This document shows positions 20,547 to 25,232 of a stretch of DNA of 64,000 nucleotides, piece by piece. A program made the translations under genes and the position numbers. Each line of letters begins with the position of its first letter. Position 1 is the first letter of the stretch. Source of the stretch: Atopococcus tabaci (GTDB taxonomy: Bacteria > Bacillota > Bacilli > Lactobacillales > Carnobacteriaceae_A); assembly GCA_030535975.1 (NCBI GenBank), contig JAUNQW010000007.1, forward strand, positions 1 to 64,000. The letters are read 5' to 3'. Under the pieces are notes generated by a model. It had not been told where the DNA came from and ran no database searches. It was given only the letters and a program-made list of their open reading frames with translations.

Positions 20547-21815
20547 CTAGACTAAGAGGTCATAGAGAGTTGAGTTGTCATTTAATGAAACATACTTCGG
20601 ATCGAAAGCTTCAATACGCTTGAGCAAGTCAGGTAAACTGTCAGGATCTGCTATTTCTAAGCCCACAAGTAAAGGCCCGTCATTTTGATTAGTTTTTTTC
20701 GTATATTGGAAAGTAGTGATGTCATCCCCCTGGCCTAAAACTTCGCTCACAAACTCTAATAAAGCTCCCGCACGTTGTGGAAAGTGTAAAATAAAGTAAT
20801 GTTTACGGCCTTCATACATTAAGGCTTTTTCCTCTATTTCGGCTAGACGGTTAATATCATTATTTCCTCCACTGACTAAACAGATCACATTCTTGCCTTT
20901 TATTTCTTCCTTCATCTTATCCAGAGCAGCAATAGTCAAAGCACCGGAAGGCTCTGAAATAATTGCCTGGCGTGTGTACATATCTAAAATTTTAGAACAG
21001 ACTAATCCTTCTTCCACAACTACGATGCGCTGAATCAAATCTTTCGTTACTTCAAAAGTGAGATTCCCAACTTGTGCGACTGCAGTTCCATCACAAAAAG
21101 GATCGATATCCTCAAGAGCCCTGACTTCATTATTGCGAATCGAGCTCTGCATCGAAGGTGCTCCACTAGCTTCTACTCCGATAACTTCAGCTTCCGGCAT
21201 CGCATCAGAAGCATAAGCTGCAACACCCGAAATTAAGCCCCCGCCGCCAATCGGACAGAAAAAGTAGTCTGCACTTTCCCCGGCAGCTACTAAATCCTGG
21301 TGAGCTTCTACAGCCAGAGTTCCCTGCCCGGCCATCACATTATAATCGTTGAAAGGTTCAACAAAGTATTTTTTTTCCGTTGCGGAAAATTCATGGGCTG
21401 ATGCACTGCATTCATCAAAAGTATCGCCGATTAAATGAATTTTGACATTGTTCTCTCCAAAATATTCAACCTGTTGAATTTTTTGATTAGGGGTAGTAAC
21501 CGGCATAAATATATCCGCATGAGTGTCTAAAGCTTTAGCAGTATAAGCCACACCTTGGGCATGATTACCTGCTGAAGCACAGACCACTCCTTTGTCTAAC
21601 TCTTTCTGTGCTAATTGAGACATAGCATAGTAAGCCCCGCGTAACTTAAACGAGCGGACTTTTTGTAAATCTTCACGTTTGAGATAGATGTTTGCTTCAT
21701 ATTTCTGTGAAAGATAATCATCTAATTGAAGTGGTGTTTTATTAACGATAGGTTTTAATACCTTATAGGCATCTAATACTTTTTCTTTATTGATATGCTT
21801 TTTGTATTCAGGCAT
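20547..21815 (-). CDS. ilvA: threonine ammonia-lyase (biosynthetic)
   Basis: 422-residue PLP enzyme that converts threonine to 2-oxobutanoate, the first committed step to isoleucine. The PLP lysine lies in RSFKLRGAYYAM (K57), and the glycine loop is GGGGLISG. The C-terminal 90 residues (HYFILHFPQRAGALLEFVSE) form one ACT-like regulatory domain, as in the short Firmicutes enzymes. It follows ilvC, but a strong terminator lies between them, so it may be transcribed separately or by read-through. Confidence 0.95.
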   Translation of the reverse strand: MPEYKKHINKEKVLDAYKVLKPIVNKTPLQLDDYLSQKYEANIYLKREDLQKVRSFKLRGAYYAMSQLAQKELDKGVVCASAGNHAQGVAYTAKALDTHADIFMPVTTPNQKIQQVEYFGENNVKIHLIGDTFDECSASAHEFSATEKKYFVEPFNDYNVMAGQGTLAVEAHQDLVAAGESADYFFCPIGGGGLISGVAAYASDAMPEAEVIGVEASGAPSMQSSIRNNEVRALEDIDPFCDGTAVAQVGNLTFEVTKDLIQRIVVVEEGLVCSKILDMYTRQAIISEPSGALTIAALDKMKEEIKGKNVICLVSGGNNDINRLAEIEEKALMYEGRKHYFILHFPQRAGALLEFVSEVLGQGDDITTFQYTKKTNQNDGPLLVGLEIADPDSLPDLLKRIEAFDPKYVSLNDNSTLYDLLV

Positions 21816-21857: not shown

Positions 21858-21885
21858 AGTTTAACAGAAATTTTAAAAAAACAAA
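21858..21885 (-). promoter_or_regulatory. weak candidate promoter of ilvA
   Basis: On the minus strand TTGTTT, a 15-base spacer, and TAAACT with an extended TGT just before it. It lies just downstream of the ilvC terminator, which would allow ilvA to be expressed on its own. The short spacer makes it weak. Confidence 0.3.
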
Positions 21886-21918
21886 ATACTATCAAGCTTG
21901 ATTTAAGCCTGATAGTAT
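21881..21918 (-). terminator. strong terminator between ilvC and ilvA
   Basis: On the minus strand ATACTATCAGGCTT and AAGCTTGATAGTAT pair over about 13 bases with a short loop, followed by TTTGTTTTTTT. It ends or attenuates the ilvBNC transcript before ilvA. Confidence 0.85.
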
Positions 21919-21940
21919 TTAAGACTGCTTATTTTTTTTA

Positions 21941-22975
<1,035 letters not shown>

Positions 22976-23014: not shown

Positions 23015-23278
23015 TTAAAAATGCGTTTCTAAAGAAGTCATATCTAGAGCACTGATAACATCCACTTGTTTTTCTAAAGTAAGTGTCAGTAAGGTGGCCT
23101 GCTCTTCTGCTTTTTCTTCCGGCAGGCGCACACCGATTGTGATGATAGATATTTTTGGATCTTCTGTTGCGATTAAAGAAAGTGAATCAATATTATAATG
23201 AGGCTTCAAAACCACTTGTGTAATTCTATGTAAAACACCTGGACGATTAACAACCTTTAATTGAATTAATCTGTACAT
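23015..23278 (-). CDS. ilvN: acetolactate synthase small subunit, ACT domain only
   Basis: 87-residue regulatory subunit consisting of a single ACT domain (LKVVNRPGVLHRITQVV). Most Firmicutes IlvN/IlvH proteins are about twice as long and carry a second C-terminal domain that is absent here; only 63 bases separate the stop from ilvC, so nothing is left of it. The size resembles enteric IlvM/IlvN. It overlaps the end of ilvB by 13 bases, so translation is coupled. Confidence 0.9.
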   Translation of the reverse strand: MYRLIQLKVVNRPGVLHRITQVVLKPHYNIDSLSLIATEDPKISIITIGVRLPEEKAEEQATLLTLTLEKQVDVISALDMTSLETHF

Positions 23279-24981
23279 GTATATACACCTCTCATTTGAT
23301 CATTTGAGTCTCCAGCTGCAACCATTGGATAAACGATGTCCTCGCCCGAGATTACGATTTCCAATAGGTAAGAGCCGTCGTATTCAAAAGCCTTATCTAT
23401 CGCTGATTCTAATTCTTTGGGGTCACTTACACGATCAGCTGTTACTCCTAATGCTTCTGATAATTTTACAAAGTCTGGTAATTTATCAGAAATCGTATGA
23501 GAGTATCTTTTGTCATAAAAAAGTGTCTGCCACTGGCGAACCATTCCTAATGAGGAATTATTAAATAGGAAAAACTTAACATTTACGTCATTTTCTTCCA
23601 GGATATTCAATTCCTGATTGGTCATCTGGAAGCCGCCGTCTCCCACAAAACAAACAACATCACGGTGACGGGCTCCCATTTTAGCTCCTATAGCAGCTGG
23701 TACTGCGAAGCCCATGGTACCGAGTCCTCCAGAAGTCAGATGCTGGTCACCATATTTGTATGGATAAGCTTGTGCCACCCACATCTGGTGTTGACCGACA
23801 TCAGAAACTACCAAGGCTTCTCCATCAGTTACTTCCCCAACATATTCAACTGCTCGATGAGCCAGAATGGTGTCTTTTTGTTCATAATGAATAGGATGTT
23901 TTTTACGATTATTAAAGCAGTGCTCAATCCAATCTTCGTTCGCTTTATAGTCTTCTAAATCATAATCAAGTAAAGCTCGTAAAGCTTGCTTAGCATCGGC
24001 CTGATAAGTAAAGTCAGTATCAATTATTTTACCCAGCTCACTGGCATCGATGTCAAAATGAGCAATTTTAGCATCTGGTGCAAAATTATCCGGGTTAGTT
24101 GCTACACGGTCATCAAAACGCGAACCAATATTAATCATCAAATCACATTCCACAATAGCCATGTTGGCTGCGTAAGTACCATGCATCCCGGCAAATCCTA
24201 AATTATACTTCCCGCGGACTGGATAAGCCCCCTGACCCAGCAGAGTAGAAATAGCAGGAATTTGATATCTATCGATAAATTCAGTTAACTCTTCTTCAGC
24301 ATCAGCTAAAGAAACACCATGTCCAAATAAGAAGAGAGGCTTCTCAGATTCCTTCAAAGCTTCCATGACTGGTGCAACATCAAAATCCACCTCAGCTAAT
24401 TTTTCCGGAGCATATCCCGGCAGATCTATTTCAATCTCATCTGGGTTTTTCAGCTCTGCAAAATTGTTACCAACATTTTTAGGAATATCCACAACAACAG
24501 GACCTTTACGTCCGGTGTTAGAAATATATAACGCTTCTTTAATAACACGCTGTATATCTTCAGCTTTTCTCACTTGATAGACATATTTTGTGATAGGAGT
24601 CATTAAGCCTTGAACATCTACCTCTTGGAAAGCATCCTTACCGATCCCAGTTTCTGCAACTTGACCTGTAATGATGACCATTGGAATAGAGTCCATCAGG
24701 GCTGTGGTAATCGCTGTCACTGTATTAGTAGCACCGGGTCCACTTGTCACGATACACACACCTGGACGTCCTGTTGCTCTTGCATAACCATCAGCCATAT
24801 GCGCCGCACCCTGTTCATGACGAGCCAGAATATGATTAGTTTTTGATTTATAGAACTGATCAAAAATATCAATAACAGCGCCGCCTGGATAACCAAATAA
24901 AACGTCCACACCTTCATCTTCCAGTGCTTGGACTAATAATTCAGTCCCCTTCTTCATTGTCGATGACTGCGTTTCTTCCAT
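23266..24981 (-). CDS. ilvB: acetolactate synthase large subunit
   Basis: 571-residue thiamine-diphosphate enzyme that condenses two pyruvates to acetolactate, or pyruvate with 2-oxobutanoate. The catalytic Glu lies in LARHEQGAAHMADGYAR and the ThDP/Mg motif is GDGGFQMTNQELNILEENDV. It has the FAD-type central domain of anabolic AHAS, and the ilvN partner follows. TAGGAGATG lies upstream. Expression is predicted to be set by the leader attenuator at 25017-25164. Confidence 0.96.
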   Translation of the reverse strand: MEETQSSTMKKGTELLVQALEDEGVDVLFGYPGGAVIDIFDQFYKSKTNHILARHEQGAAHMADGYARATGRPGVCIVTSGPGATNTVTAITTALMDSIPMVIITGQVAETGIGKDAFQEVDVQGLMTPITKYVYQVRKAEDIQRVIKEALYISNTGRKGPVVVDIPKNVGNNFAELKNPDEIEIDLPGYAPEKLAEVDFDVAPVMEALKESEKPLFLFGHGVSLADAEEELTEFIDRYQIPAISTLLGQGAYPVRGKYNLGFAGMHGTYAANMAIVECDLMINIGSRFDDRVATNPDNFAPDAKIAHFDIDASELGKIIDTDFTYQADAKQALRALLDYDLEDYKANEDWIEHCFNNRKKHPIHYEQKDTILAHRAVEYVGEVTDGEALVVSDVGQHQMWVAQAYPYKYGDQHLTSGGLGTMGFAVPAAIGAKMGARHRDVVCFVGDGGFQMTNQELNILEENDVNVKFFLFNNSSLGMVRQWQTLFYDKRYSHTISDKLPDFVKLSEALGVTADRVSDPKELESAIDKAFEYDGSYLLEIVISGEDIVYPMVAAGDSNDQMRGVYTCTD

Positions 24982-25016: not shown

Positions 25017-25054
25017 ATTAAAAAAGCATCCCATAGGTTAGTATGGGATGCTTT
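25017..25054 (-). terminator. ilv attenuator terminator hairpin
   Basis: On the minus strand AGCATCCCATA, loop CTAACC and TATGGGATGCT followed by TTTTTT: a perfect 11-base stem about 40 bases before ilvB. It lies inside the transcribed leader, downstream of the leader peptide, and so acts as the attenuator rather than the end of a gene. Confidence 0.9.
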
Positions 25055-25074
25055 GATCCCACTTGTCTGCTAAC
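25029..25074 (-). promoter_or_regulatory. candidate ilv antiterminator
   Basis: On the minus strand GTTAG...TGGGAT, loop CAAAGC, ATCCCA...CTAAC. The TGGGAT segment can pair with the 5' arm of the terminator and GTTAG with its loop, so this fold and the terminator exclude each other. The pairing was found by eye; folding energies were not computed. Confidence 0.65.
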
Positions 25075-25113
25075 AACAAATAGGATTCAAACACTGAAGT
25101 AAATTCTCAGGTC

Positions 25114-25164
25114 TCAATCCTCGTTTAAAACGACTAATAATAAATTAGAATTTGCTGATAACAT
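25114..25164 (-). CDS. ilv operon leader peptide (16 residues)
   Basis: Small open frame MLSANSNLLLVVLNED with stop TGA, preceded by AAGAGGCGG about 10 bases before the ATG. Five of 16 residues are Leu (three in a row) and two are Val, directly adjacent; Ile is absent. Its place between a strong promoter and the attenuator hairpin fits ribosome-mediated attenuation as known for the Lactococcus lactis leu-ilv operon. Ribosome stalling at Leu/Val codons during starvation would favour the antiterminator. Confidence 0.85.
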   Translation of the reverse strand: MLSANSNLLLVVLNED

Positions 25165-25203
25165 AGTGGAACCGCCTCTTATATTTTTGTTTTGTTAGAT
25201 ACA

Positions 25204-25232
25204 ACTATACGTGTCCCTTTCCTTAAAGTCAA
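25204..25232 (-). promoter_or_regulatory. promoter of the ilv leader and operon
   Basis: On the minus strand TTGACT (-35), a 17-base spacer and TATAGT (-10), close to consensus. It places the transcript start near 25197, about 30 bases before the leader-peptide ATG and about 215 bases before ilvB. Confidence 0.85.

Follow-up and report, generated by a model that had tools for sequence, protein, structure and literature searches.

The window analysed here, 64,000 nucleotides of an Atopococcus tabaci contig (JAUNQW010000007.1, positions 1 to 64,000), contains a leader before ilvB that is very probably a ribosome-mediated transcription attenuator of the Rli60-like kind, controlling ilvBNC, and at least partly ilvA, through the charging of leucyl- and valyl-tRNA. 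Its mechanism is ordinary and its specificity unusual; among the 67 ilvB and ilvD leaders tallied (24 and 43, respectively), it was the only one free of Ile codons.

Organization of the leader and of the ilvB gene cluster

The Leu/Val leader arrangement before ilvB is real, and its parts were found on the minus strand in the order proposed by a sequence-only reading (Table 1). Both the TTGACT-17-TATAGT promoter and the 16-residue leader peptide of that reading were present, and from the promoter position transcription is predicted to start near 25197. The gap between the Shine-Dalgarno-like motif and the leader ATG is 10 nt, which is long and was counted against the attenuator interpretation. 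The terminator was AAAGCATCCCATA-CTAACC-TATGGGATGCTTT; the six T described earlier were there, and the 11 pairs assigned to it became 13 in the terminator scan. From the end of this terminator to ilvB there are 38 nt, and an ABC-type ATPase gene lies divergently upstream of the leader. The genes ilvB-N-C-A with a nearby ABC-type ATPase gene recurred in the six relatives compared, the ATPase gene lying one gene further away in L123. The short IlvN covers only the first half of its family profile, and its length was 84-108 aa in these six relatives. The hairpin between ilvC and ilvA may partly uncouple ilvA from the leader. L118 and L119, the two nearest relatives, showed a similar hairpin, so this element alone cannot explain the missing Ile codons of the window leader.

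Table 1. Features of the ilvB leader and gene cluster in the window.
Feature	Positions	Strand	Basis
Promoter, sigma-70-type: TTGACT (25232-25227), 17-nt spacer, TATAGT (25209-25204)	25204-25232	-	sequence
Shine-Dalgarno-like AAGAGG of the leader ORF	25175-25180	-	sequence
Start arm (protector) GGUUCCACU, partner of antiterminator arm	25165-25173	-	folding, cognate-pairing test
Leader ORF MLSANSNLLLVVLNED, 16 codons, ATG at 25164, stop TGA ending at 25114	25114-25164	-	sequence
Control codons 8-13, TTA TTA TTA GTC GTT TTA (L L L V V L)	25126-25143	-	sequence, relatives' leaders
Conserved hairpin P2, AGGAUU...AAUCCU, overlapping the ORF end	25082-25121	-	alignment of leaders
Antiterminator arm AGUGGGAUC	25055-25063	-	folding, pairing test
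Terminator 5' arm, also partner of antiterminator arm	25042-25054	-	terminator scan, folding
Terminator 3' arm (25035-25023) and T run (25025-25020)	25020-25035	-	terminator scan
ilvB, acetolactate synthase large subunit	23266-24981	-	TIGR00118, 692 bits
ilvN, short acetolactate synthase small subunit, 87 aa	23015-23278	-	TIGR00119, 51.2 bits, just below curated cut-off of 56.9
ilvC, ketol-acid reductoisomerase	21941-22951	-	NCBIfam
Strong terminator-like hairpin, 16 pairs and T tract, between ilvC and ilvA	21884-21920	-	terminator scan
ilvA, threonine ammonia-lyase	20547-21815	-	NCBIfam

The promoter pattern alone was not above chance, with 18 such sites found in the 64 kb and 20.1 expected. 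Its position was conserved: a match to at least 10 of 12 bases, with a 17-nt spacer, was located 31-56 nt 5' of the leader ATG in 22 of 22 leaders (21 before ilvB, plus that of leuA in the same genome). Folding of the leader RNA, proposed earlier as a check, gave -64.9 kcal/mol versus -39.3 kcal/mol for shuffled sequences (z -6.07), and none of 200 shuffles was as low. When the window was scanned for a Shine-Dalgarno-ATG-ORF with six or more I/L/V codons in a row and then a T-hairpin, one case was detected, the ilvB leader, and 60 Markov-shuffled 64-kb copies gave none. Two marks of branched-chain amino acid (BCAA) attenuators were found in the window leader: a short ORF whose run of cognate codons immediately precedes competing hairpins, and a mutually exclusive antiterminator and intrinsic terminator.

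Conservation of the scaffold

We then analyzed 30 ilvB loci of the order, the window's own included: 21 had a leader directly 5' of ilvB, and ilvD occupied this place in the other nine. Twenty relatives (20 of the 29 other loci) thus shared, before ilvB, a promoter, a terminator and between them an ORF of BCAA codons that ends at a hairpin. A scan of 15 out of 80 named loci found such a leader directly 5' of ilvB only in Trichococcus (L009), and none in the others, six streptococci among them.

A covariance model of the 3' half, R1, built from 15 sequences (ilvB leaders and the leuA leader of the same genome), matched 153 of the 395 genomes of the order at E ≤0.01, with Listeria rli60 among the matches. 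The window leader showed the R1 scaffold, i.e., an AGGAxU..AxUCCU hairpin at the ORF end, an antiterminator arm and a terminator, in this order, its score being high by construction because it is one of the training sequences. Among the 92 best matches, 72 were read for leader ORF and next gene, the remaining 20 being ilvB leaders already compared; with an ORF picker that favours ILV runs, 70 of the 72 showed an ORF with a BCAA run that ends at the hairpin and is followed by a fitting gene. The two left out of the codon tally were L198, with no BCAA leader, and L161, not located before a BCAA gene. The tally therefore comprised 90 rows from the best-scoring matches, many of them close relatives, with 15 distinct ilvB and 39 distinct ilvD peptides. 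Within it, the control run was mixed I/L/V at ilvB and ilvD and LLL at leuA, and it was Ile-rich before SBF-type transporters, a BrnQ-type transporter and substrate-binding proteins.

The scaffold with an Ile-rich run was found before SBF (bile-acid symporter) transporter genes at L154, L155, L156, L157, L158, L159, L182 and L193, assigned by Pfam for L154, L155 and L182 and by similar starts for the others; L154-L159 come from the window's own family. These leaders suggest that the transported substrate is related to isoleucine or to a branched 2-oxo acid. No SBF transporter gene was found in the A. tabaci genome itself. The scaffold also preceded, with an Ile run, an iron-containing alcohol dehydrogenase-like gene, recognized by Pfam in L183 and only by a similar start in L192, and, with VVIII, an aminotransferase class IV gene (L171 by Pfam, and L172), which is probably a branched-chain aminotransferase. 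In L084, L085, L096 and L099, the 17-nt promoter spacer held an imperfect palindrome, TGAG..CTCA, with CCCCTAATTAGGGG in L097; this is a possible operator, and the TGAG..CTCA palindrome was not seen in the window promoter.

Folding and arm pairing of the switch

The competing antiterminator claimed earlier was supported by arm covariation and by folding at defined ribosome positions. Cognate and non-cognate duplex energies were compared for the start and antiterminator arms of 25 leaders, and the cognate mean was -9.98 kcal/mol versus -7.96 kcal/mol (sd 0.40), with none of 20,000 permutations as good. For seven ilvB representatives, only the true one of 5040 arm assignments reached the observed mean. 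In the single leaders L084, L175 (rli60), L176 and L182, start-arm pairing was no better than non-cognate pairing.

When the leader transcript of the window was cut before the terminator 3' arm and folded free of ribosomes, the antiterminator arm paired with the start arm with a probability of 0.95, and the antiterminator had one of 0.01. For ribosome-bound folds, the ribosome was assumed to cover 17 nt on the 5' side of the first base of the A-site codon and 14 nt on its 3' side. A ribosome placed on any of codons 8-11 (L L L V) raised the antiterminator probability in the cut transcript to 0.24-0.38, start-arm pairing in the model still being 0.49-0.67; for codons 12 and 13 and for the stop, the antiterminator probability was 0.00-0.01. 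A ribosome on the start codon also freed the antiterminator arm (0.75, cut transcript). In the full-length fold, the terminator won at every ribosome position (pairing of its arms at least 0.94), and since it was favoured in every such equilibrium fold, the switch would have to work by timing. The same scan of ribosome positions in 29 leaders gave mixed results, with little or no dependence near the control codons in L096, L151, L176 and L190.

These results are consistent with the following order of events. Transcription would begin near the predicted start. With no ribosome on the leader, or once it has left after the stop, the start arm would pair with the antiterminator arm, helped by pairing of codons 1-6 with a stretch 3' of hairpin P2; the terminator 5' arm would be left free, and the terminator would form. 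When leucyl- or valyl-tRNA is short, the ribosome would stall on codons 8-11 (TTA TTA TTA GTC) and cover the codons just 5' of them, breaking the helper pairing, and the antiterminator arm would capture the 5' arm of the terminator while its 3' arm is still to be made, so that RNA polymerase would read into ilvB. Isoleucine would not be sensed, because the leader has no Ile codon.

Comparison with known systems

The closest known system is Rli60. The R1 match L175 is rli60 itself (Rfam RF02414, 180.3 bits), with the 13-residue peptide MKTTKSVITILLL. According to the available text of PMC5864092, Rli60 precedes ilvD in Listeria, encodes a peptide of 13 aa and was shown experimentally to be a ribosome-mediated attenuator, by means of a lux fusion and mutants of the leader start, the RBS and the terminator. 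It shares with the window leader the BCAA-rich peptide, the competition between antiterminator and terminator, and the control of BCAA genes, as far as that source goes, and it differs in that the L175 peptide has Val, Ile and Leu codons and its start-arm pairing is weak. Since the layout recurs before ilvB in relatives and R1 matches rli60, we take the window leader to be a member of the Rli60-like scaffold. The earlier claim of a ribosome-mediated attenuator was thus supported by this homology along with conservation, arm covariation and folding. Against the Rfam model of rli60 the window leader scored 19.9 bits (cut-off 60). Its best sub-threshold Rfam match was the Lactococcus leu-phe_leader, RF01743, over its full length (25191-25020), with 30.7 bits and E 0.0018-0.0035 (cut-off 70), and it is therefore assigned to neither Rfam family. 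Listeria Rli60 is a better precedent than the Lactococcus leu-ilv operon offered earlier.

A T-box or metabolite riboswitch that holds a short ORF by chance is scarcely credible as an alternative. The leader is strongly structured, and T-boxes control ilv-leu in Bacillus (PMC5794164, available part), but the conserved ORF of BCAA codons would then go unexplained. Moreover, no Rfam T-box or riboswitch family reached its threshold in the window and no T-box appeared among the sub-threshold matches to E 5, so this identity was rejected. The attenuator reading has a further parallel in the ilvD leader of Staphylococcus aureus, for which the accessible portion of PMC5794164 gives genetic evidence of Leu-dependent attenuation. 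As described there, that leader also has a peptide with Leu codons and a terminator, and unlike the window leader it encodes 26 aa with three Ile codons, isoleucine acting via CodY. The motifs described in the available parts of PMC8632094 and PMC2965389 are other ones. In the literature covered, which left out most subscription journals, we found neither this leader nor a family that unites such leaders described in any paper.

The ilvBN attenuator of Escherichia coli reads valine and leucine and is not known to read isoleucine. It is an ilvB leader with the same Val and Leu response as that predicted here and can serve as a functional precedent for the specificity of the window leader, being a Gram-negative leader likened to it by function only. 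Its leader peptide has 32 aa, of which 11 are BCAAs (PMC6123439, available part).

Leucine and valine codons without isoleucine

The sensing of Leu and Val but not Ile proposed by the sequence-only reading stands as a prediction, with the window leader the sole Ile-free one in the tally; in the model, however, a stalled ribosome opened the antiterminator only at codons 8-11, and not at V12 and L13. The peptide of the nearest relative, L084, is MLTPKSLLIIVIIS. Aligned in register with the window, its Ile codons 9, 10, 12 and 13 correspond to Leu, Leu, Val and Leu, and the Val codon GTC at position 11 is kept; GTC was found in 21 of the 21 ilvB leaders compared.

One alternative is that the attenuator answers BCAA shortage in general, with isoleucine acting indirectly, e.g., through valine and leucine pools that drop when the pathway runs short, and that the missing Ile codons matter little. 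In agreement, ilvBNCD are common to isoleucine, valine and leucine synthesis, ilvA is in the same gene cluster, and the S. aureus and Listeria leaders read several BCAAs in the available parts of their descriptions. We nevertheless regard it as unlikely, since at least one Ile codon was kept in 66 of the 67 ilvB and ilvD leaders, suggesting that codon choice is under selection. Still less probable is a decaying leader, in which the operon is permanently attenuated or the Ile to Leu/Val changes are drift. In its favour, at E ≤1e-150 an ilvB of this kind was detected in this genome only among 27 of its family, and the ORF no longer stops where those of the nearest relatives have their TAG but is two codons longer. 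However, each of the four replaced Ile codons gave way to one for Leu or Val, nothing is lost from the promoter, the arms or the terminator, and a stop further downstream is common among other leaders (stop +7 rows).

The predicted Leu/Val-only specificity comes from a single assembly of 1.33 Mb in 57 contigs, 85% complete. It contains leuA, leuB and a leuD-like gene, and the sequence from leuB to the contig end looks by eye like the start of leuC. The ilvD gene, on another contig, showed no leader of the ilvB-leader kind in the 97 nt 5' of it. A second attenuator of the same scaffold was found before leuA (L117:3967-4134, contig C14), with the peptide MVNIQINDNDFLRTSLLLI and control codons TTA TTA TTA ATC before the stop. 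R1 gave six matches over this genome at E ≤5: the ilvB leader, the leuA leader, C14:4024 (plus strand, over the leuA leader), L230, L231 and L233. As candidates for an Ile-sensing leader elsewhere, the last three were rejected, L230 and L233 showing no BCAA leader and L231 (contig C51) carrying what we take to be a T-box-like element, GGTGGTACCACG, before an apparent tRNA-synthetase gene. CodY (PF06018) was found in G380, G190 and G112, and was not found in the A. tabaci genome, in its nearest relatives G292 and G058, or in G086. This route for isoleucine was therefore discarded, which leaves the operon with no known control by isoleucine.

Leucine biosynthesis genes were also considered as the cause of the Leu codons. 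No leuB match above cut-off was found in G086, G030, G281 and G324, whose ilvB leaders have no Leu codons, and genomes with leuB mostly have ilvB leaders with Leu codons, G058 being an exception; this association is only a hint, because the first four genomes are close relatives. The explanation was rejected, as leuB is also present in G292 and G058, whose leaders keep Ile codons.

Discussion

A broader interpretation, to which we give somewhat less than even credence, is that one conserved scaffold, in Lactobacillales and Listeria-like genomes, senses different amino acids interchangeably, the control codons alone deciding which: mixed I/L/V at ilvB and ilvD, Leu at leuA, and Ile at transporters. 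In this lineage the ilvB copy would have been retuned from Ile/Val to Leu/Val, perhaps in part because the reading frame of an (ATT)n tract rotated by one base and ATT ATT (Ile Ile) turned into TTA TTA (Leu Leu). The retuning would have uncoupled acetolactate synthase from isoleucine, in a genome in which no CodY was found. The analysis assigns an ilvB leader that had no annotation to a scaffold family with an experimentally proven member in Listeria, and suggests that the rli60 of Rfam is one corner of a much wider family. The Ile-run transporter leaders offer testable substrate hints for SBF-family genes. The window leader would itself show, in nature, the amino-acid specificity of a sensor shifting codon by codon, with the RNA switch unchanged.
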